This document shows, piece after piece, positions 4,374 through 28,977 of a DNA stretch of 39,660 nt. The DNA lies in the IMG/VR virus record IMGVR_UViG_3300008108_000736, positions 1 through 39,660 of that record. One strand, 5' to 3'. A program made the translations under genes and the position numbers. The stretch is from a virus. Below the pieces are notes generated by a model that was not told where the DNA came from, did not search any database, and saw nothing but the letters and a program-made list of their open reading frames with translations. Within the stretch, counting starts at the first letter, position 1. Each line of letters begins with the position of its first letter.

Positions 4374-5000
4374 ATGACTCCTAAAATAGAATTGTTGCTG
4401 TATGATAACACTGCTTTTAAACTGCAACTGTCTTTACTTAGACGAAGAATTGCAGTTTTAGTCAGCGGTGGACTAGATAGCGCACTGCTCTATTATCTCG
4501 TGAAAAAGCTTTCACTAGAAGATGATAGATACGTTGTTACTCCATACACATTAGAGCGACAAGATGGTTCTAAAAATCATGCACAGTTGGTAATAGACTA
4601 CGTGCATGATACGCTGCAAGCTGACAGAACAACTACCAACTACATACCGATAGTTAGTACAGATAGTAATCTTCAAGTAGCAGAAGGTATGAGTGTAGTT
4701 CTAAAAGAACCTAGCAACATACTTTATATGGGGCATATAAAGATATTAGCTGAACATGCACTGCATGGTGTTCCTACTCCATATGTTCCTGTAGATAAGG
4801 AATTTGTAAAAAATCCTCTTAAAGATTTGACAAAGGCACATGTCGTTGATATGATAACAAAGTTGAATATTGAACAGCTTTTTCTATTGACACATAGTTG
4901 CGTATACAATATAGATGGTAGATGCAATGGGTGTAATAGGTGTAATGAAAGAGCTTGGGCATTTGATCAGTTAGGTTTGGTTGATCCAGGTATAAAATAA
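4374..5000 (+). CDS. queC: QueC-like 7-cyano-7-deazaguanine synthase (PP-loop ATPase)
   Basis: The 208-aa protein has the PP-loop SGGLDS at residues 31-36 and a C-terminal four-cysteine zinc site (C176, C184, C187, C190 in HSCVYNIDGRCNGCNRC). This is the pattern of QueC, which converts CDG to preQ0. Length is slightly under the usual 220-230 aa. PreQ0 feeds queuosine in tRNA and, in several phages, deazaguanine bases in DNA that block restriction. No DpdA, FolE, QueD or QueE is visible here, so which use applies is unknown. Divergence leaves another PP-loop adenylating activity possible. Confidence 0.72.
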   Translation: MTPKIELLLYDNTAFKLQLSLLRRRIAVLVSGGLDSALLYYLVKKLSLEDDRYVVTPYTLERQDGSKNHAQLVIDYVHDTLQADRTTTNYIPIVSTDSNLQVAEGMSVVLKEPSNILYMGHIKILAEHALHGVPTPYVPVDKEFVKNPLKDLTKAHVVDMITKLNIEQLFLLTHSCVYNIDGRCNGCNRCNERAWAFDQLGLVDPGIK

Positions 5001-7607: not shown

Positions 7608-8174
7608 ATGGCAGTACTAGCCTTAGACATATCGGGTATCCCGCGCACGTGGGTCTCCCACGACGAAGCAATTTCGTATCACGCAAAGAACCTGGTAGCA
7701 TGGACTCTAGGTGATGTAGTTGCCAGATACCGCGGTGGTATTCAAAGCAACGGTGAGCAGAGTTATCTTGAGACTCCCAGTATTATCGCTGTTAAGGGTA
7801 ATGGCTTTGATTTCAAGAAGCACAACAAGGTCATCTTGACTAACCAAACGTTGTTCGCTCGTGACCGTCATATCTGTGCTTACTGTGGAAAGCACTTTGT
7901 AAGCAAGTATGATTTGAGTCGTGACCACATTGTTCCTCGTTACCACGGTGGTGAGGACACGTGGATGAACGTTGTTACTGCTTGCTTTAACTGTAACCAA
8001 AAGAAGGGCTGTAAGTCTCTTAAGGAATCGGGTATGGAATTGAGATATGTCCCCTACGAGCCGAATCACTATGAGAGTTTGATTTTGCAGAATCGCAGTA
8101 TTCTTGCAGATCAGATGGACTACTTGATTTCAGGTGTCCCAAAGCACAGTAGAATCTTGCAATTAGCGGCTTGA
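7608..8174 (+). CDS. HNH endonuclease (McrA/HNH_5-like)
   Basis: The 188-aa protein has a textbook HNH core: C90xxC93, DHIVPR (D106-H107), Asn121 (TWMNVV) and C126xxC129N, in the order CAYCG ... SRDHIVPRYHGGEDTWMN ... CFNCNQKKG. The domain makes nicks or double-strand breaks with one metal ion. The N-terminal 80 residues are typical of T4-like and cyanobacterial homologues and have no other domain. AGGAG lies about 7 nt before the ATG. The TGA stop lies inside the next promoter's TTGACA. Confidence 0.9.
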   Translation: MAVLALDISGIPRTWVSHDEAISYHAKNLVAWTLGDVVARYRGGIQSNGEQSYLETPSIIAVKGNGFDFKKHNKVILTNQTLFARDRHICAYCGKHFVSKYDLSRDHIVPRYHGGEDTWMNVVTACFNCNQKKGCKSLKESGMELRYVPYEPNHYESLILQNRSILADQMDYLISGVPKHSRILQLAA

Positions 8175-9498: not shown

Positions 9499-9517
9499 AA
9501 CTTTTTGAAAAAACTTC

Positions 9518-12193: not shown

Positions 12194-12268
12194 GCGCTCG
12201 TAGCTCAGGGGTAGAGCACCGTGCTGATAACGCGGTGGCCGGAGGTTCAAATCCTCCCGGGCGCACCA
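12194..12268 (+). tRNA. tRNA-Ile(GAT)
   Basis: Acceptor GCGCTCG/CGGGCGC, stem CCGTG/CGCGG, loop CTGATAA, ACCA end. Confidence 0.95.
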
Positions 12269-12355: not shown

Positions 12356-13024
12356 TTATTTCTGTCTAGCTTGAAGCTCGTTCTTGATCCACTCTTTAGC
12401 GATGTGTGATTGGGGAGGAGCTCCTAGCCATTTGTCCATTGACTTCTGAACATATTGAATATCAGGTTCGCCTCTGTTGTTGTCAACAATGAAGAATCTA
12501 TTTCCAAAGATACTCTGCAATTGACCTAAACCCTTCTGCACTCTAAGCCATGTATCTTTAACAAACTTAGGATCAATCTGTCTACCGTAGTCTTTTCCGG
12601 GTGTTTGTGATCTACGTGTAGTGCGTTCAAGGCTAGTATCAAGAGTAGTGTTCACGAATACCATAGCAGTTTCGTAACCTAATTCTTCAAGCTTTGTTTT
12701 AACATCATTCATGACATTTGGGTTCTTGCCGGTACCGTCAATGATCAATCCTAAGCGACCATCAAGATAGTTTTGCTCTCTCATTCTATATTTTTCCCAA
12801 GCAGCAGAATAGTCTTGCTCGGCATCGCCGGTAGCTTTTTGAGACTGTCTTAGGTAGTTGTAGAAATCATCTACATTCAATGACTTGAGACCAGTGCCAG
12901 CAAATAGTTTATTAGCTATTGTGGTTTTTCCCGAACCGGGTGATCCTGCCATAAAGACAGCTTTGAAAATATTCGGATCGTGAACGCCTTCGTCTAGAGG
13001 CTGAGAGAATTCGTTAAAGCGCAT
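12356..13024 (-). CDS. P-loop kinase (polynucleotide kinase/zeta-toxin-like)
   Basis: The 222-aa protein has Walker A GSPGSGKT (residues 27-34), an acidic DD (52-53) as in kinases of the PNK/zeta group, a DGTGKN strand end (96-101) and an arginine-rich lid (RTTRR, 134-138). It may phosphorylate RNA 5' ends or a small molecule. The N-terminus MRFNEFSQPLDEG is amphipathic and resembles capsid-targeting leaders of T4 internal proteins, so it could be packaged. The late motif lies 4 nt before the ATG, divergent to the gene at 13049 with only 24 nt between starts. Confidence 0.72.
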   Translation of the reverse strand: MRFNEFSQPLDEGVHDPNIFKAVFMAGSPGSGKTTIANKLFAGTGLKSLNVDDFYNYLRQSQKATGDAEQDYSAAWEKYRMREQNYLDGRLGLIIDGTGKNPNVMNDVKTKLEELGYETAMVFVNTTLDTSLERTTRRSQTPGKDYGRQIDPKFVKDTWLRVQKGLGQLQSIFGNRFFIVDNNRGEPDIQYVQKSMDKWLGAPPQSHIAKEWIKNELQARQK

Positions 13025-13048: not shown

Positions 13049-15280
13049 ATGAAAGACCTACTAGAACAATTAATGAAACTTGATGAAGCACCTGTAAAGC
13101 CCGGTGAACGAAAAGGTATTTCCTTCAAACTAAAGAAGCTGGAGAAACTTAGTAACCAGCTTGACAAGTACAAAAGTTCATTGCATAGCATGAAGTACAT
13201 GGATCTTCCTCCTGCACTCGAAAAGTCTAAGGTCAATGACAGACCTGTTAAAATGGACAATCTGTTCAAGGCTCTAGCAAAGAACTGCAAAGAGATTATA
13301 AAGGTTTACAAGGAACTCAACAGAAACAACTTTGAACGAGAAAAGTTTTTGTTTAGAGGGATTAGATCAAGTGACGATGCATTGTATGGTAAACCGTTTG
13401 AATCACGTAAACCCAAAGATAGCAACCAAGACTTGCATGAATTAGTCAACGGAACCATCAAACACTTAGGTTTTGAAGCTAATAGAGAAAACGCCATGTT
13501 TGTTACTGGTGATAGAAGCCAGGCAAGCGGTTATGGACATTCATTGTACGTATTGTTTCCAGTAGATGGATTCAAGTTTACATGGAGTAAAACAGTAAAA
13601 GATTTGGTCCTAGACAATAATAAAAGAAGGGACCTGTTGGACCAAGAAGTGGTTCCTAAACTTAGAGAAATGGTAAAGAAAGCCAAGGCTGAAAGCAAAG
13701 ATCCATCTACATTTCCTGTATATAACCCGGACGATTTGTTCTACAGTGGATATGAATATGATCGTGACTATGAAAGCGTATCTAGTGCAATTGATCAGGG
13801 ATTGTTACCCGAGGAAGCACAAGATTTATTAGACAATGTTTTAACTAATAAAAGTATTCAGGAACATTTTCAGTTCACTGATCAAGATTTGTTTAGTGCA
13901 ATTCTCTCAGAAAAAGAAATCTATGTCAGGGGAAACTACTATGCTGTTAACATTGAACATAGTAGAGAACTATTCAAGTTCTTAGAGCAAATTAATACTG
14001 ATAATGTTGAGCTTCCAGAAAACTTTGGTGAAGTTCCTAATATCTTGGACAAGGGTGATGTTGTTAGAATACTAGCTGGAAATCATCAGGGTAAGCTAGG
14101 TACGATTACCTATGTATATGGTGACAAGTACGAAGTGTTCTTGACTCAAAAGACCGGTGACATTACTATATCAAAAGATGAGGTAGAATTATACCATCTA
14201 CCTGATGGATCAATTCCTATCTATGAAAGAGACGATAAGATCATTGTTTCTGATCCTGACAGTAGATTATACGGGACAGTTGGCACTGTTAATTTTGTAT
14301 ATGCAAACGGTAAGATTGAGATAGTTGATACAAAAGGTAATCATAGCACTGTATATAAGAATCAACTAGAGAGCTACACTCCCGAACGTGATGAAGAAAT
14401 TCAAAAGGATCTTGCGGGCAAACCTCCTGTTATTGAAAACAATGATGATGTTGTTGTTAGTGATGCTGATAGTGAATACTACGGTGAGCGCGGCCGCGTA
14501 AACTTCATCTACAGCAGTGGAACTATTGAAGTCTATCTTCCAAAGAGAAGCATGTATGTAGACTTTCAACCCAATCAATTAGTATTGCTAAAGAACGCAC
14601 CACCTGAATTATTGAAGAAAGTACCGGGTGAGTATCACTTAGGAGATGCAGTCAAGATTACTAGTGGTGAGTACGCCGGTAGTTCTGGTAAAATTACATA
14701 TCTATACAGCAACGGTACAAAAGCAGAAGTAGATATTGGCACAACACGAGCAGATGTGTACTTGTCGGATTTAGAACACTTTGACCAAGATTCTTCTGAT
14801 TCTACTAATGTCATTAAGGTCGGAGATATCGTCAAAGTTATCAATGACGAGTCAAGCTACTATGGGCAGTCTGGCGAAGTGATTGAAGTAGGAAAGAATC
14901 CTAACGGAAAAGAATGGATTAAATTCAAAAGCCTCACCATATCAGATGGCGTTAAAACTTTCATTGACTGGGTCCAAAAAGTAACCGATGAAGTAGAATT
15001 TAAGTCAGGCGACAAGGTAAAGATTGAATATAATCAAAGTTTATACAACGGCAAAGAAGGTACAGTATCAGCAGGTCCTGATGAAGATGGTGACTATAAA
15101 GTTGTAGTAGGAAAAAACATTACATATGTCCCGGCCGGCGGAATGAAAAAACTTGAGCAAGATTCTACTGCTGCTTCTGCATTTGCAATGGGTGATAAAG
15201 TTAAAATATTAGATAAGTCAAGCGGCTTCTACGGCGACATAGGTGAGATTGAAAGCGGGCCTGATAATGACGGCGATTAG
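13049..15280 (+). CDS. ADP-ribosyltransferase-like protein with KOW-type repeats (amber-interrupted)
   Basis: 743 aa up to a TAG at 15278. Residues 1-15 (MKDLLEQLMKLDEAP) are amphipathic, like T4 capsid-targeting leaders. Residues 100-300 have an ART-like order: FRGIR (R103), FVTGDRSQASGYG (151-163, in place of the S-T-S strand) and ExE-like EKEIYV (E288, E290). From about 333 there are at least seven KOW/SH3-like repeats of the form GDxVxIxxxxSxYYGxxGxVxxxYxxGxxEV. T4 Alt is also a packaged, injected ART, so an injected effector is plausible. The amber replaces the Tyr of the seventh repeat (DGDYK becomes DGD-stop); the frame continues to 15940. The ART call is by eye. Confidence 0.6.
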   Translation: MKDLLEQLMKLDEAPVKPGERKGISFKLKKLEKLSNQLDKYKSSLHSMKYMDLPPALEKSKVNDRPVKMDNLFKALAKNCKEIIKVYKELNRNNFEREKFLFRGIRSSDDALYGKPFESRKPKDSNQDLHELVNGTIKHLGFEANRENAMFVTGDRSQASGYGHSLYVLFPVDGFKFTWSKTVKDLVLDNNKRRDLLDQEVVPKLREMVKKAKAESKDPSTFPVYNPDDLFYSGYEYDRDYESVSSAIDQGLLPEEAQDLLDNVLTNKSIQEHFQFTDQDLFSAILSEKEIYVRGNYYAVNIEHSRELFKFLEQINTDNVELPENFGEVPNILDKGDVVRILAGNHQGKLGTITYVYGDKYEVFLTQKTGDITISKDEVELYHLPDGSIPIYERDDKIIVSDPDSRLYGTVGTVNFVYANGKIEIVDTKGNHSTVYKNQLESYTPERDEEIQKDLAGKPPVIENNDDVVVSDADSEYYGERGRVNFIYSSGTIEVYLPKRSMYVDFQPNQLVLLKNAPPELLKKVPGEYHLGDAVKITSGEYAGSSGKITYLYSNGTKAEVDIGTTRADVYLSDLEHFDQDSSDSTNVIKVGDIVKVINDESSYYGQSGEVIEVGKNPNGKEWIKFKSLTISDGVKTFIDWVQKVTDEVEFKSGDKVKIEYNQSLYNGKEGTVSAGPDEDGDYKVVVGKNITYVPAGGMKKLEQDSTAASAFAMGDKVKILDKSSGFYGDIGEIESGPDNDGD

Positions 15281-18823: not shown

Positions 18824-20041
18824 ATGCAAGTAATTCAAGGAAACAAGGGTGGTCTTATTAAGGCATGGATCGACGGCGTGACCGTTGAGGATCAAGCCCG
18901 CGCCCAGCTTGACAATATTGCTTCTATGCCCTTTATCCACAAGCACGTAGCAATTATGCCTGATGTTCACTGGGGAATGGGTGCGACTGTTGGTTCGGTT
19001 ATTCCGACCAAGAATGCAATCATCCCTGCTGCGGTCGGCGTTGATATCGGTTGCGGTATGATGGCGCACAAGACCAATCTTCGTGCAGAAGATTTGCCCG
19101 ACAACCTGTTTGGCATTCGCTCTGCAATTGAAGCACGAGTGCCGCATGGTCGTACTGACAATGGTGGCAAGAATGACCGTGGTGCATTCGGTGTTCCTTC
19201 TAGCGAAGCTGCACTTAAGTTTACTGCACATGCGGCTGGTCTTGCTGAAATCGTAGCTAAGCATCCTAAGATTGGTCAGGCAGCAGAACGTGCGCCTCAT
19301 CACTTAGGTACGCTCGGTTCTGGTAATCACTTCGTAGAGATTTGTCTTGATGAAGATGATTACGTTTGGATCATGCTGCACTCAGGTTCTCGTGGTATTG
19401 GTAACCGTATCGGTTCCTACTTCATTGAACTTGCGAAGCAGGATATGCGTAAGTGGTTTATCAATCTTCCGGATATGGACCTTGCGTATCTGCCGGAAGG
19501 CACTGATCACTTCAACGACTACATGCAGGCAGTGTCTTGGGCACAGAAGTTTGCTCGTAGCAACCGTGAAGTAATGATGGAAGCAACTATTGCTGCTATC
19601 CGTTCAGTGATCACGAAGCCGTTCTATAGTGAGTTGATGGCAGTTAACTGTCACCACAACTATGTATCGCACGAAAAGCACTTCGGTGAGGACGTTCTTG
19701 TTACTCGTAAGGGTGCAGTGTCCGCTAAGAAGGACGAAATGGGAATTATCCCGGGTTCAATGGGTGCAAAGTCATTCATCGTTCGTGGTAAGGGTAATCG
19801 TGAATCGTTCTGTTCGTGTTCACACGGTGCAGGACGCTCTATGAGCCGTACCGAAGCGAAGAAGCGTTTCACTCTTGAGGACCATATCGCTGCTACGGCA
19901 GGGGTTGAGTGCCGAAAGGACGCAGACGTTATTGACGAAACGCCGAAGGCGTACAAGGACATTGATGCAGTTATGGCTGCACAGTTTGACCTTGTAGATA
20001 TCGTGCATACGTTGAAGCAGGTAGTTTGTGTCAAGGGGTAA
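18824..20041 (+). CDS. rtcB: RtcB RNA ligase
   Basis: The 405-aa protein is a complete RtcB, which joins RNA 2',3'-cyclic phosphate or 3'-phosphate ends to 5'-OH ends through GMP-His. Visible residues: DVHWGMG (D47, H49), GVDIGCGM (D74, C77), GSGNHFVE (N168, H169, E172), LHSGSRG (H186), NCHHN (275-279) and CSHGAGR, where H334 is the guanylylated histidine. AAGGA precedes the ATG. Adjacent tRNA genes point to repair of tRNAs cut by host anticodon nucleases. No archease is seen nearby, so host or intrinsic activation is needed. Confidence 0.97.
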   Translation: MQVIQGNKGGLIKAWIDGVTVEDQARAQLDNIASMPFIHKHVAIMPDVHWGMGATVGSVIPTKNAIIPAAVGVDIGCGMMAHKTNLRAEDLPDNLFGIRSAIEARVPHGRTDNGGKNDRGAFGVPSSEAALKFTAHAAGLAEIVAKHPKIGQAAERAPHHLGTLGSGNHFVEICLDEDDYVWIMLHSGSRGIGNRIGSYFIELAKQDMRKWFINLPDMDLAYLPEGTDHFNDYMQAVSWAQKFARSNREVMMEATIAAIRSVITKPFYSELMAVNCHHNYVSHEKHFGEDVLVTRKGAVSAKKDEMGIIPGSMGAKSFIVRGKGNRESFCSCSHGAGRSMSRTEAKKRFTLEDHIAATAGVECRKDADVIDETPKAYKDIDAVMAAQFDLVDIVHTLKQVVCVKG

Positions 20042-22790: not shown

Positions 22791-22831
22791 AAACTTTTTT
22801 CACAAATAGGCAAAAAAGTTCTTGACATTAG
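22791..22831. repeat. 41-bp hairpin-promoter direct repeat, copy 1
   Basis: AACTTTTTT (22792-22800) pairs with AAAAAAGTT (22812-22820), then TTGACATTAG. The same 41 bases recur at 23121-23161. Confidence 0.85.
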
Positions 22832-22884: not shown

Positions 22885-23121
22885 ATGTCTACTCAACTCA
22901 AGGGCGTCACTGGTAAGACTGGTGAAGTTTCTATGGTTCGCTACTTCGGTGGCAAGGAAGATGGTAAGTGCGTTCAACTGACTTTTAAGAAGCCGGAAGA
23001 AGAACGTAATCGTCCTGATTTCGGTTATTGGTATCTGCAAATGAATAAGTCGCAGGCGCTGGAACTGGCTGCTGCACTGGTTGAGTTTGCTAACGATACC
23101 CGTGAAGAAGTTTACGACTAA
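22885..23121 (+). CDS. Small hypothetical protein, 78 aa
   Basis: Own promoter and AAAGGA support the ATG. The product MSTQLKGVTGKTGEVSMVRYFGG... has a beta-rich first half and a C-terminal helix (KSQALELAAALVEFANDTREEV). It is flanked by two copies of a 41-bp hairpin-promoter repeat, so it is a self-contained expression cassette directly upstream of the large structured RNA. No family recognised. Confidence 0.78.
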   Translation: MSTQLKGVTGKTGEVSMVRYFGGKEDGKCVQLTFKKPEEERNRPDFGYWYLQMNKSQALELAAALVEFANDTREEVYD

Positions 23122-23161
23122 AACTTTTTTCACAAATAGGCAAAAAAGTTCTTGACATTAG
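23121..23161. repeat. 41-bp hairpin-promoter direct repeat, copy 2
   Basis: Identical to 22791-22831. The AACTTTTTT/AAAAAAGTT hairpin may end the upstream mRNA, while the same unit supplies the -35 of the next promoter. Confidence 0.85.
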
Positions 23162-23180
23162 TATCAAGAATAAGTATAAT
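23152..23180 (+). promoter_or_regulatory. Perfect consensus promoter of the large structured RNA
   Basis: TTGACA 23152-23157, 17 nt, TATAAT 23175-23180: all 12 consensus bases match. The only such site found in the window. Confidence 0.85.
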
Positions 23181-23189
23181 GAATTTATC

Positions 23190-23223
23190 AAGACGAGAAA
23201 TCGTCTTAGCTCTTTGAAAATTG
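23190..23223 (+). promoter_or_regulatory. boxB/boxA-like leader of the giant RNA
   Basis: Hairpin AAGACGA-GAAA-TCGTCTT (23190-23207), then AGCTCTTTGAAAATTG (23208-23223). Third instance of this pattern, immediately after the start of transcription. Confidence 0.55.
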
Positions 23224-23671
23224 AATTAAGAATTGGGGGCATAGCCTCACTAGGGTAGCAGGGAGTAATCTCTGTCAAAGCAAGAAAGCCTACGCACTTG
23301 CGCTTGTAGCAATACAAGTCCATCTATGCAAGCCTGAACTAGCCGAAAGGCCCGTCTGACGAAGGCGGTAGGTAGTAAGTCAGGTATGTCGTCCGAAGGG
23401 ATAGGCTACAGAGCCAAATCGGTGAGTAGCTAAGAGGGTTGGCGCCCTCACGATGTGCAGCCAAACTGACGAGTACTGAAAGTTAACAGGTAGTTATTGA
23501 GTCTGACCCTGCAAGGAAAGGCGAGATAGCAATACAAACGGTGAAAGAGGACACTTGCTCTGGAATCGTGAAGTATGGTTGAGTAGCCCGCAAGGCAAAA
23601 GACATGAGGTGTGTTGTATTTTGTAGCTAACAAGCTATGAAGCAACTGGAGCAGCACATCTTGGTAGGTTT

Positions 23672-23747
23672 CGCATTGTAGCTCATTCGGTAGAGCAACA
23701 TTTTGATGTAATGTAGGTAATAGGTTCAACTCCTATCTATGCAACCA
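23672..23747 (+). tRNA. tRNA-Ile(GAT)-like, embedded in the giant RNA
   Basis: CGCATTG/CTATGCA acceptor with C1-A72 and one T-T mismatch, D-arm GCTC/GAGC, anticodon stem ACATT/AATGT, loop TTGATGT (GAT), T-arm ATAGG/CCTAT, ACCA end. It sits at the tip of a GGAGCAG/CTGCTCC stem. The weak acceptor suggests partial decay or a structural use. Confidence 0.75.
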
Positions 23748-24159
23748 TAAAAAGCGAAAGACTGCTCCGGTAACATGTGAAAGACGCTTAATACCACAGT
23801 CGCAAGGCAATGTGGTCTACGGAAGCCCGCAAGGCAGAAGTAGTTGTTCGGAATGAAGGCGTAAGGGTTTAGCGACTCTGAACAGCCCGCAAGGCTGACG
23901 AAAGAATGACTCGTCAAAAAAGGCAGCGTTGAGAGTTACTAACTGACCGTAAAAGGCGTTAGTGGATAACGAGTCAACGGTCCTCGCAAGGGATTCGGTA
24001 CAACTCAAAGACTCTCGTTTAAGGCTGTAATCTCAGGCTTTGTAAGAAATAGACTAAATAATATTAGACTATTTTGATGAATACACTAGAACGTGCCCCT
24101 AGTAGCAGTAGTGAATCAAGGGCAAGATGTTGAGTGTGTTCTTCAAAATAGTTTATTGT

Positions 24160-24238
24160 CGTGGGGTAGAGGAGTCAGGTTGTCCTCGCTGGTCTCATAA
24201 GCCGGAAATCGTCGGTTCAAATCCGACCCCCGCAACCA
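24160..24238 (+). tRNA. Initiator tRNA-fMet(CAT)
   Basis: Acceptor CGTGGGG/CCCCGCA with the initiator C1-A72 mismatch, loop CTCATAA, and the T-arm and 3' end (CCGACCCCCGCAACCA) closely like bacterial tRNA-fMet. It follows the giant RNA directly, and RNase P cleavage would define that RNA's 3' end. Confidence 0.93.
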
Positions 24239-24245
24239 GTTTTAA

Positions 24246-24319
24246 GCGGGATTAGCATAGTGGTAATGCTCCAGCCTTCCAAGCTGATCAGACGGGTTCG
24301 ATTCCCGTATCCCGCTCCA
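24246..24319 (+). tRNA. tRNA-Gly(TCC)
   Basis: Acceptor GCGGGAT/ATCCCGC, loop CTTCCAA, TCCA end. 7 nt after tRNA-fMet. Confidence 0.95.
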
Positions 24320-24336
24320 AATATAAAGGGATTGAC

Positions 24337-28086: not shown

Positions 28087-28977
28087 ATGATAAATCATTG
28101 GGCAAAAGTAGAAGGAACTGTAATTGATTTTACAGTTCCTTCTTTTAAAGAAACAGTCAAAAATCCGTTACACGCTGCTATTGAAGCAGTTGATGACATA
28201 GTAAAAAATTATCCACCTCCTTATAATCTTATGGTCAGTGGCGGGCTAGATAGTCAGGCCATGTTGTATGCGTGGAAAATGTCAGGACACCCGTTTAACG
28301 CATACTGTTTTCGGTACAACGAAACGTTCAACGAGCATGATATCAAGACGCTTCCTATTTTTTGCGAACAGGAAGACATTTCATATACCATAGTAGATTT
28401 TGATTACTTTAAGTTTTTGGAAGAAGAATACGATAGCATAGCAAAAAGATACAAATGTAGCAGTCCTCAAATATCCATGCATATAAGAATGGCAAGCCTC
28501 ATTGAGGGTACCTGTATGTACTCCGGAAATTTTCTAAATATGCAGTCAGCAAGTTTAACGTATGCTTTGTTAGGACTCTACAGATTTAGTCAATCTTCGG
28601 AAGGAAAAAACATTGTACCTTATTTTTTCCTACATACACCGGAGTTAGCATATAGTTTGAATTTTTTAGAGTCTTCCAGCGATACTAAAGCTAACCTTAG
28701 TACTTCACATATAACGTATGCTTATAGGGTTCATCTTTACCAAATGGGAGGGTTTCCGGTTATACCTCAAACAAAAAAGTTGAATGGTTTTGAAAAATTT
28801 AAAGAACACTATGATAGTCATGATTATGTTTTAAAAGATTTCAGAAACAAGATGAAGTGGTACAATAAACCAAGTCATAGACCATTTGATTGGTTATTTC
28901 GTTACCCATATGAAGACCTCTTCGGAGAGCCTGAACTTAAGTTTATTCTAAACAACCTCCCCTATGTCATAAATTAA
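28087..28977 (+). CDS. PP-loop ATPase, asparagine-synthase/ExsB-like
   Basis: The 296-aa protein has the PP-loop SGGLDSQAML (about residues 51-60), followed by a Rossmann-type core (FNAYCFRYNETFNEHDI). It lacks the QueC cysteine cluster, so it is a different branch from the gene at 4374. PP-loop enzymes adenylate a carbonyl before amination or thiolation, e.g. in tRNA modification or amide formation. The Cys residues are scattered (C88, C128), so tRNA thiolation is unproven. No clear ribosome-binding site. A terminator-like hairpin lies inside codons 8-19. Confidence 0.72.
   Translation: MINHWAKVEGTVIDFTVPSFKETVKNPLHAAIEAVDDIVKNYPPPYNLMVSGGLDSQAMLYAWKMSGHPFNAYCFRYNETFNEHDIKTLPIFCEQEDISYTIVDFDYFKFLEEEYDSIAKRYKCSSPQISMHIRMASLIEGTCMYSGNFLNMQSASLTYALLGLYRFSQSSEGKNIVPYFFLHTPELAYSLNFLESSSDTKANLSTSHITYAYRVHLYQMGGFPVIPQTKKLNGFEKFKEHYDSHDYVLKDFRNKMKWYNKPSHRPFDWLFRYPYEDLFGEPELKFILNNLPYVIN
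28110..28147 (+). terminator. Terminator-like hairpin inside the 5' end of the PP-loop gene
   Basis: AGAAGGAACTGTAA (28110-28123) pairs perfectly with TTACAGTTCCTTCT (28130-28143), 6-nt loop, then TTTT. It may end the subtilase transcript or attenuate the PP-loop gene. Confidence 0.55.

Follow-up and report, generated by a model that had tools for sequence, protein, structure and literature searches.

The 39,660-base virus record IMGVR_UViG_3300008108_000736, analysed here over its whole length (the window), carries on its plus strand a giant RNA of the GOLLD family with a tRNA-like domain in its linker. The RNA totals about 805 nt and consists of a 5' domain (23235-23605, beginning GGGGGCATAGCC) and a 3' domain (23606-24039), with an exact sigma70-type promoter match upstream (23152-23180) and a 99-nt hairpin (24061-24159) and a tRNA-Met (24160-24238) downstream, all on the plus strand. 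The setting is tRNA-rich, with 44 ARAGORN tRNA calls in the window, every one on the plus strand. An earlier interpretation made from the letters of the DNA (the sequence-only reading) had proposed a GOLLD- or ROOL-like RNA, or possibly a new class, in about 970 nt free of genes. On identity and anatomy, and leaving aside any role as bait, we regard it as very probable that the region encodes a GOLLD RNA, from a large phage rich in tRNAs, in which the acceptor of the tRNA-like domain has been replaced by stalk helices.

Results

The Rfam GOLLD model RF02032 matched positions 23606-24039 over its full length (model positions 1-416) at 151.3 bits (E 1.3e-40), above its curated cut-off of 150 bits, and an intact, near-identical copy at the related locus L020 (L-labels denote the related loci compared) scored 192 bits. 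The Infernal comparison with Rfam models, proposed beforehand as a check, therefore places the RNA in a known family: the new class was set aside on the GOLLD match, and ROOL because its model gave no match at the Rfam gathering score. RF02032 matched only once in the record, and it gave no match in 14 control genomes. A protein-coding region was also rejected for want of a supported open reading frame (ORF), in keeping with the gene-free stretch first described; no plus-strand ORF of at least 60 aa lies within 23122-24336 (a small ORF ends at 23121), and three minus-strand ORFs of 63-93 aa wholly within the RNA had no PHROG family match.

The fold covaries. Alignment A1 comprises 27 sequences across the 5' domain, linker and 3' domain, and RNAalifold predicted 220 pairs from it, of which 156 had at least one sequence changed on both sides with pairing kept; this count comes from RNAalifold rather than R-scape, does not model relatedness, and includes many pair types per position. 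The two-sided changes extend into the upstream 5' domain, which lies outside the Rfam model and is separate, structured and less conserved, and which aligns as homologous sequence across the set. Where the outcomes that the sequence-only reading had named as contrary to an RNA could be tested, none came about: covariation was massive, and no protein was supported.

BLASTN against cultured phages returned 22 records (Caulobacter, Ruegeria and Phaeobacter phages), and all five of these that were put through Rfam contained GOLLD; further searches brought in Mesorhizobium phage Cp1R7A-A1 and the 469-kb Sinorhizobium phage Phosso, each with a GOLLD. A motif located 3' of the linker identified 91 viral-contig loci, and about 40 of the loci found by motif have short linkers without a tRNA. 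A strict GOLLD 3'-end pattern gave no matches in viral contigs and a relaxed pattern two, and the linker-side motif gave four matches in genome contigs, of which only L101 is GOLLD by Rfam. The pooled set with a tRNA-like linker contains 54 rows from viral contigs and cultured phages, including the window and phages MAL1 and MD18. Cultured phages with the same RNA include Caulobacter phages phiCbK, Karma and BL57, Ruegeria phages DSS3P8, V10 and MAL1, Phaeobacter phage MD18, Cp1R7A-A1 and Phosso; all of these except DSS3P8 and V10 have the tRNA-like linker domain, and their anticodon loops differ.

Within the linker, the tRNA-like domain sits on two stalk helices. Stalk helix 1, GGAGCAG (23648-23654, plus strand) with CTGCTCC (23762-23768), was described at the outset as directly enclosing a nearly complete tRNA, and all seven of its base pairs form in each of the 52 tRNA-linker loci tested, in ten different sequence combinations. 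Stalk helix 2, TTTCGC (23669-23674, plus strand) with GCGAAA (23754-23759; A1 columns 543-548/633-637), includes the 5' strand of the tRNA acceptor (CGC) and occurs as TTTGCG/CGCAAA in Caulobacter phages and Phosso and as a shorter TTGCG/CGCAA in Cp1R7A-A1. The 3' strands of both helices lie together at 23754-23768 (plus strand).

The enclosed domain (23672-23747, plus strand) was called by ARAGORN as the tRNA-Ile(GAT) first noticed, and by the Rfam tRNA model at 55.8 bits. Its D, anticodon and T arms are intact, with an anticodon loop of TTGATGT at 23703-23709 (plus strand), the segment that switches among relatives. The acceptor stem is degenerate, with five of seven positions paired and mismatches at 1-72 (C.A) and 6-67 (U.U). 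None of 39 distinct linker elements has a complete 7/7 acceptor, compared with 317 of 383 (83%) distinct free class-I tRNAs from the same loci, and an encoded CCA is present in one of the 39 (that of the window and L020) versus 95% of the free class-I tRNAs. The D, anticodon and T arms of the linker elements are almost fully paired and covary through many pair types; the script used to parse linkers did not score the acceptor stem and misregistered the few linkers with 8-nt anticodon loops, whose counts may be slightly low. When folded alone, the linker had a minimum free energy not significantly better than that of its shuffles (z -1.7), so its fold rests on covariation. Real leucine and serine tRNAs have a long variable arm. 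In several linkers, Leu or Ser anticodons (TAG, TGA, CAG) are carried on class-I bodies without such an arm. The degenerate acceptor, the use of its strand by stalk helix 2 and these class-mismatched anticodons argue that the linker element is a tRNA-like domain whose acceptor end merges into the giant RNA, rather than an ordinary tRNA. That RNase P splits GOLLD at the inner tRNA, a possibility raised by the sequence-only reading, appears unlikely, because linker elements across the family have lost a processable acceptor stem and are seated on covarying stalk helices.

Related GOLLD RNAs swap both the tRNA body and the anticodon loop. On a tree of the GOLLD core with the linker excluded (51 rows), the loop sequence changed at least 23 times. 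The RNAs of L007 and L022 are 98% identical, yet differ at five of seven anticodon-loop bases; the cores of L084 and L095 differ by about 5% and their bodies by 49%, with unchanged acceptor stubs; and L032 and L081 share one body sequence on cores that differ by 25-32%. Bodies 44-49% apart were found on cores only 3-10% apart, and body and core distances correlate at r 0.21-0.24, versus 0.74 between the two halves of the core. These comparisons indicate that body and loop are exchanged almost independently of the surrounding RNA.

The clearest case of a loop swap is a set of 13 Caulobacter phages, which as cultured phages are free of metagenome artefacts. Within their linker only five sites vary; these are adjacent, all belong to the anticodon loop, and read TCTTA in Karma, Ccr5, Magneto, Swift and RBC57, GTCCT in phiCbK, Ccr2, Ccr10, Ccr29, Ccr32, Ccr34 and S2L, and ATCCT in BL57, and just eight other sites vary from -30 nt to +493 nt of the linker anchor. 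No p-value is attached to these sites, since five adjacent changes may be one event. A pairing partner within GOLLD for the switching loop was rejected, as neither the L007/L022 pair nor the Caulobacter set has a compensating block of five bases inside the RNA. Recent copying from the phages' own free tRNAs was likewise rejected as a source of the linker bodies, the best identity to the free tRNAs of the fetched loci being 79%. Ruegeria phages DSS3P8 and V10 have no tRNA fold in the linker and keep only an anticodon-arm-like hairpin, whose loop (TTTAGGA) equals that of the tRNA-like element of L033, and L029, L044 and L065 likewise have anticodon-arm-like hairpins. The resemblance is only suggestive, since hairpins this short could have arisen by chance.

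Locus L011 is 92-94% identical to the window on both sides and only 79% identical across 23228-23905, a pattern that suggests a recombination breakpoint within GOLLD at about 23906. In the cultured relatives L002, L003, L006, L004 and L005, a permuted tmRNA lies about 1 kb or less from GOLLD, on the same strand in Ruegeria and Phaeobacter phages and on the opposite strand in Caulobacter phages.

At the 3' end, a 99-nt hairpin (24061-24159, plus strand; fold z -6.4; not in Rfam) abuts a tRNA-Met(CAT) (24160-24238, plus strand; ARAGORN) with the C1-A72 mismatch of initiators, which agrees with the tRNA-fMet first seen at 24160. The motifs flanking the hairpin are kept in L011, L020, L049, L086, L007 and others, ahead of tRNA-Met or tRNA-Ala, and in relatives with a tRNA no more than 450 nt after GOLLD that tRNA is usually Met or Ala(TGC). 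Because the hairpin ends directly before the tRNA 5' end, it is plausible that an RNase P cut at tRNA-Met sets the 3' end of GOLLD.

The exact promoter match at 23152-23180 (plus strand; TTGACA-17-TATAAT) stands as first reported, although it is not the only perfect one in the window: a second lies at 882-910. With 0.01 exact matches expected by chance for the window, two are far above chance. At the same spacing, 12 of 12 promoter bases are kept in L086, 11 of 12 in L040 and L046, and 10 of 12 in L007, L022 and L025, and the promoter was not found in L011, L049 or L082. The match at 882-910 lies directly before a tRNA-Gln(TTG) at 927 and may drive the first tRNA run. The -35 element upstream of GOLLD is carried by a 41-bp exact repeat (23121-23161, plus strand; other copy 22791-22831) that holds an inverted repeat (AACTTTTTT/AAAAAAGTT) plus TTGACATT. 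One copy stands ahead of a 78-aa ORF and the other ahead of GOLLD, and the repeat looks like a phage promoter module; similar modules occur at 9509 and 21498.

The window copy lacks 35 conserved nt at the junction 23908/23909 (plus strand). L020, which is identical to the window over 3,809 bases downstream and 99.8% identical over 909 upstream, carries these 35 nt (AAGGACGAATAGCATGTTATGACACGAGAAACGCC), as do the other 25 aligned relatives. The missing segment supplies one strand each of three conserved helices (A1 columns 649-657/799-807, 723-728/790-795 and 811-815/826-830), and two more differences between the window and L020, at 23877-23878, fall within a neighbouring fourth helix; the full set of conserved 3' stems is thus found in L020 and not in the window copy. 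The gap also accounts for the narrow pass over the RF02032 cut-off. It would represent either decay through a real deletion or a misassembly, and would concern the state of this copy rather than its family membership. Whether the copy is decayed or misassembled and gives no working RNA we consider an even call. In favour are the strands lost from three helices that are preserved in all 26 other aligned sequences and the substitutions in the fourth against an otherwise identical L020, whereas the promoter, linker and 5' domain of the window copy are identical to those of the intact L020. Such a state would be compatible with our explanation of the region, which would then hold for L020 and the other relatives.

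Other genes in the window include a Zeta-toxin/polynucleotide-kinase-like protein (12356-13024, minus strand), a 743-aa protein with a KOW motif (13049-15280), an HNH endonuclease inside the tRNA array (7608-8174), and two ORFs (4374-5000 and 28087-28977) that each match part of QueC, the second below the Pfam cut-off.

Discussion

GOLLD env-38 has been solved as a 14-mer cage with its linker inside; according to the authors of that structure, the GOLLD linker sometimes contains phage tRNAs, and GOLLD is bound by ribosomes in pull-downs (PMC12286853). The RNA described here resembles the env-38 family in its full-length 3' domain match, its separate and less conserved 5' domain, a variable linker at the same place, a phage tRNA island beside it, and the presence of a linker tRNA in some members. 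Unlike env-38, whose linker is 42 nt and disordered, it has a tRNA-like domain that is mounted on stalk helices and whose anticodon arm can be exchanged, and the window copy is 35 conserved nt short. ROOL is similar in being a giant phage RNA near tRNA islands that forms a cage with an internal linker.

In the mechanism we propose, GOLLD would have a sigma70-like promoter of its own, and processing at the junction of hairpin and tRNA-Met would probably generate its 3' end. By homology to env-38, the 5' and 3' domains would then fold and assemble into an RNA cage, presumably with the tRNA-like domain inside, held in the RNA by the stalk helices instead of being released as a tRNA. Retention of the elbow and the anticodon arm, together with loss of the charging end and a changing loop sequence, suggests that the domain mimics a tRNA for a partner that recognises the anticodon loop. 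Anticodon nucleases are a threat to phages, and free phage tRNAs bear loop changes that fit escape from them (PMC10264068). The swapped anticodon arm could accordingly be pictured as bait for anticodon nucleases or other host enzymes that recognise this loop, which would protect the phage tRNA supply, and this we offer tentatively, as possible and on the doubtful side. The fuller proposal, in which an interchangeable tRNA mimic fused into a cage RNA has its loop swapped in an arms race and the cage serves as a multivalent bait or trap, is slightly more doubtful again. An RtcB RNA ligase gene in the window (18824-20041) counts in favour of the bait. Several points weigh on the other side: part of the GOLLD 3' end shows high variability too, which is therefore not peculiar to the linker; loops without U33 (CGTCTAA, CGTCCTA, CATCCTA) or with 8 nt exist, and not all loops resemble natural nuclease targets; a closed cage may keep enzymes from reaching the inner element; and the window copy, with three conserved helices short of strands, may not fold fully.

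We rank the bait about level with neutral cassette turnover, and both above ribosome recruitment. Under neutral turnover the linker would be a tolerant landing pad at which tRNA bodies arrive by recombination from nearby tRNA islands and have no role in the RNA, a serious possibility that falls short of an even chance. Bodies are indeed exchanged between lineages, the linker is short and tRNA-free in other GOLLDs, and mycobacterial GOLLDs are reported to hold a pseudo-tRNA (PMC6582537). A landing pad is harder to reconcile with D, anticodon and T arms that are still paired with covariation, with an acceptor degenerate in every lineage while the stalk helices are kept, with loop-confined changes in several groups that are unlike random decay, and with free tRNAs at the fetched loci that are at most 79% identical to any linker body.

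A role of the anticodon arm in bringing ribosomes or mRNAs to GOLLD or its cage is improbable; the ribosome binding in pull-downs (cited in PMC12286853) and the U33 kept in most linker loops speak for this, while the loops that lack U33 or have 8 nt speak against it, and there is no reason for codon preference to switch between near-identical phages. Least probable is a genuine tRNA-Ile gene excised by RNase P and RNase Z/E with GOLLD split in two, for although ARAGORN and Rfam both call a tRNA and the window copy alone among relatives encodes CCA, its acceptor has two mismatches and is intact in no relative, the acceptor 5' strand pairs in stalk helix 2, and the window already has a tRNA-Ile(GAT) at 12194-12268.

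A GOLLD in a Mycobacterium tRNA array is similar in lying in a cluster of tRNA genes that also contains an HNH endonuclease gene and in holding a pseudo-tRNA, from which no mature tRNA was detected; its host group differs, and loop switching is not described in the accessible part of that report (PMC6582537). The occurrence of tRNAs in GOLLD linkers is already known, and what is new is how the linker element behaves across 54 related rows. Acceptor loss across lineages and loop switching in cultured phages were not found in the searchable literature, a scope outside which some GOLLD papers lie, so priority is not certain.

An acceptor-less tRNA fold whose loop differs among near-identical phages points specifically, and in a testable way, to a partner that reads anticodon loops, and phiCbK versus Karma or BL57 provides cultured natural variants whose linkers differ at the anticodon loop only. 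With the cage structure already solved, loop swapping is a clue to what the puzzling GOLLD RNAs may do.
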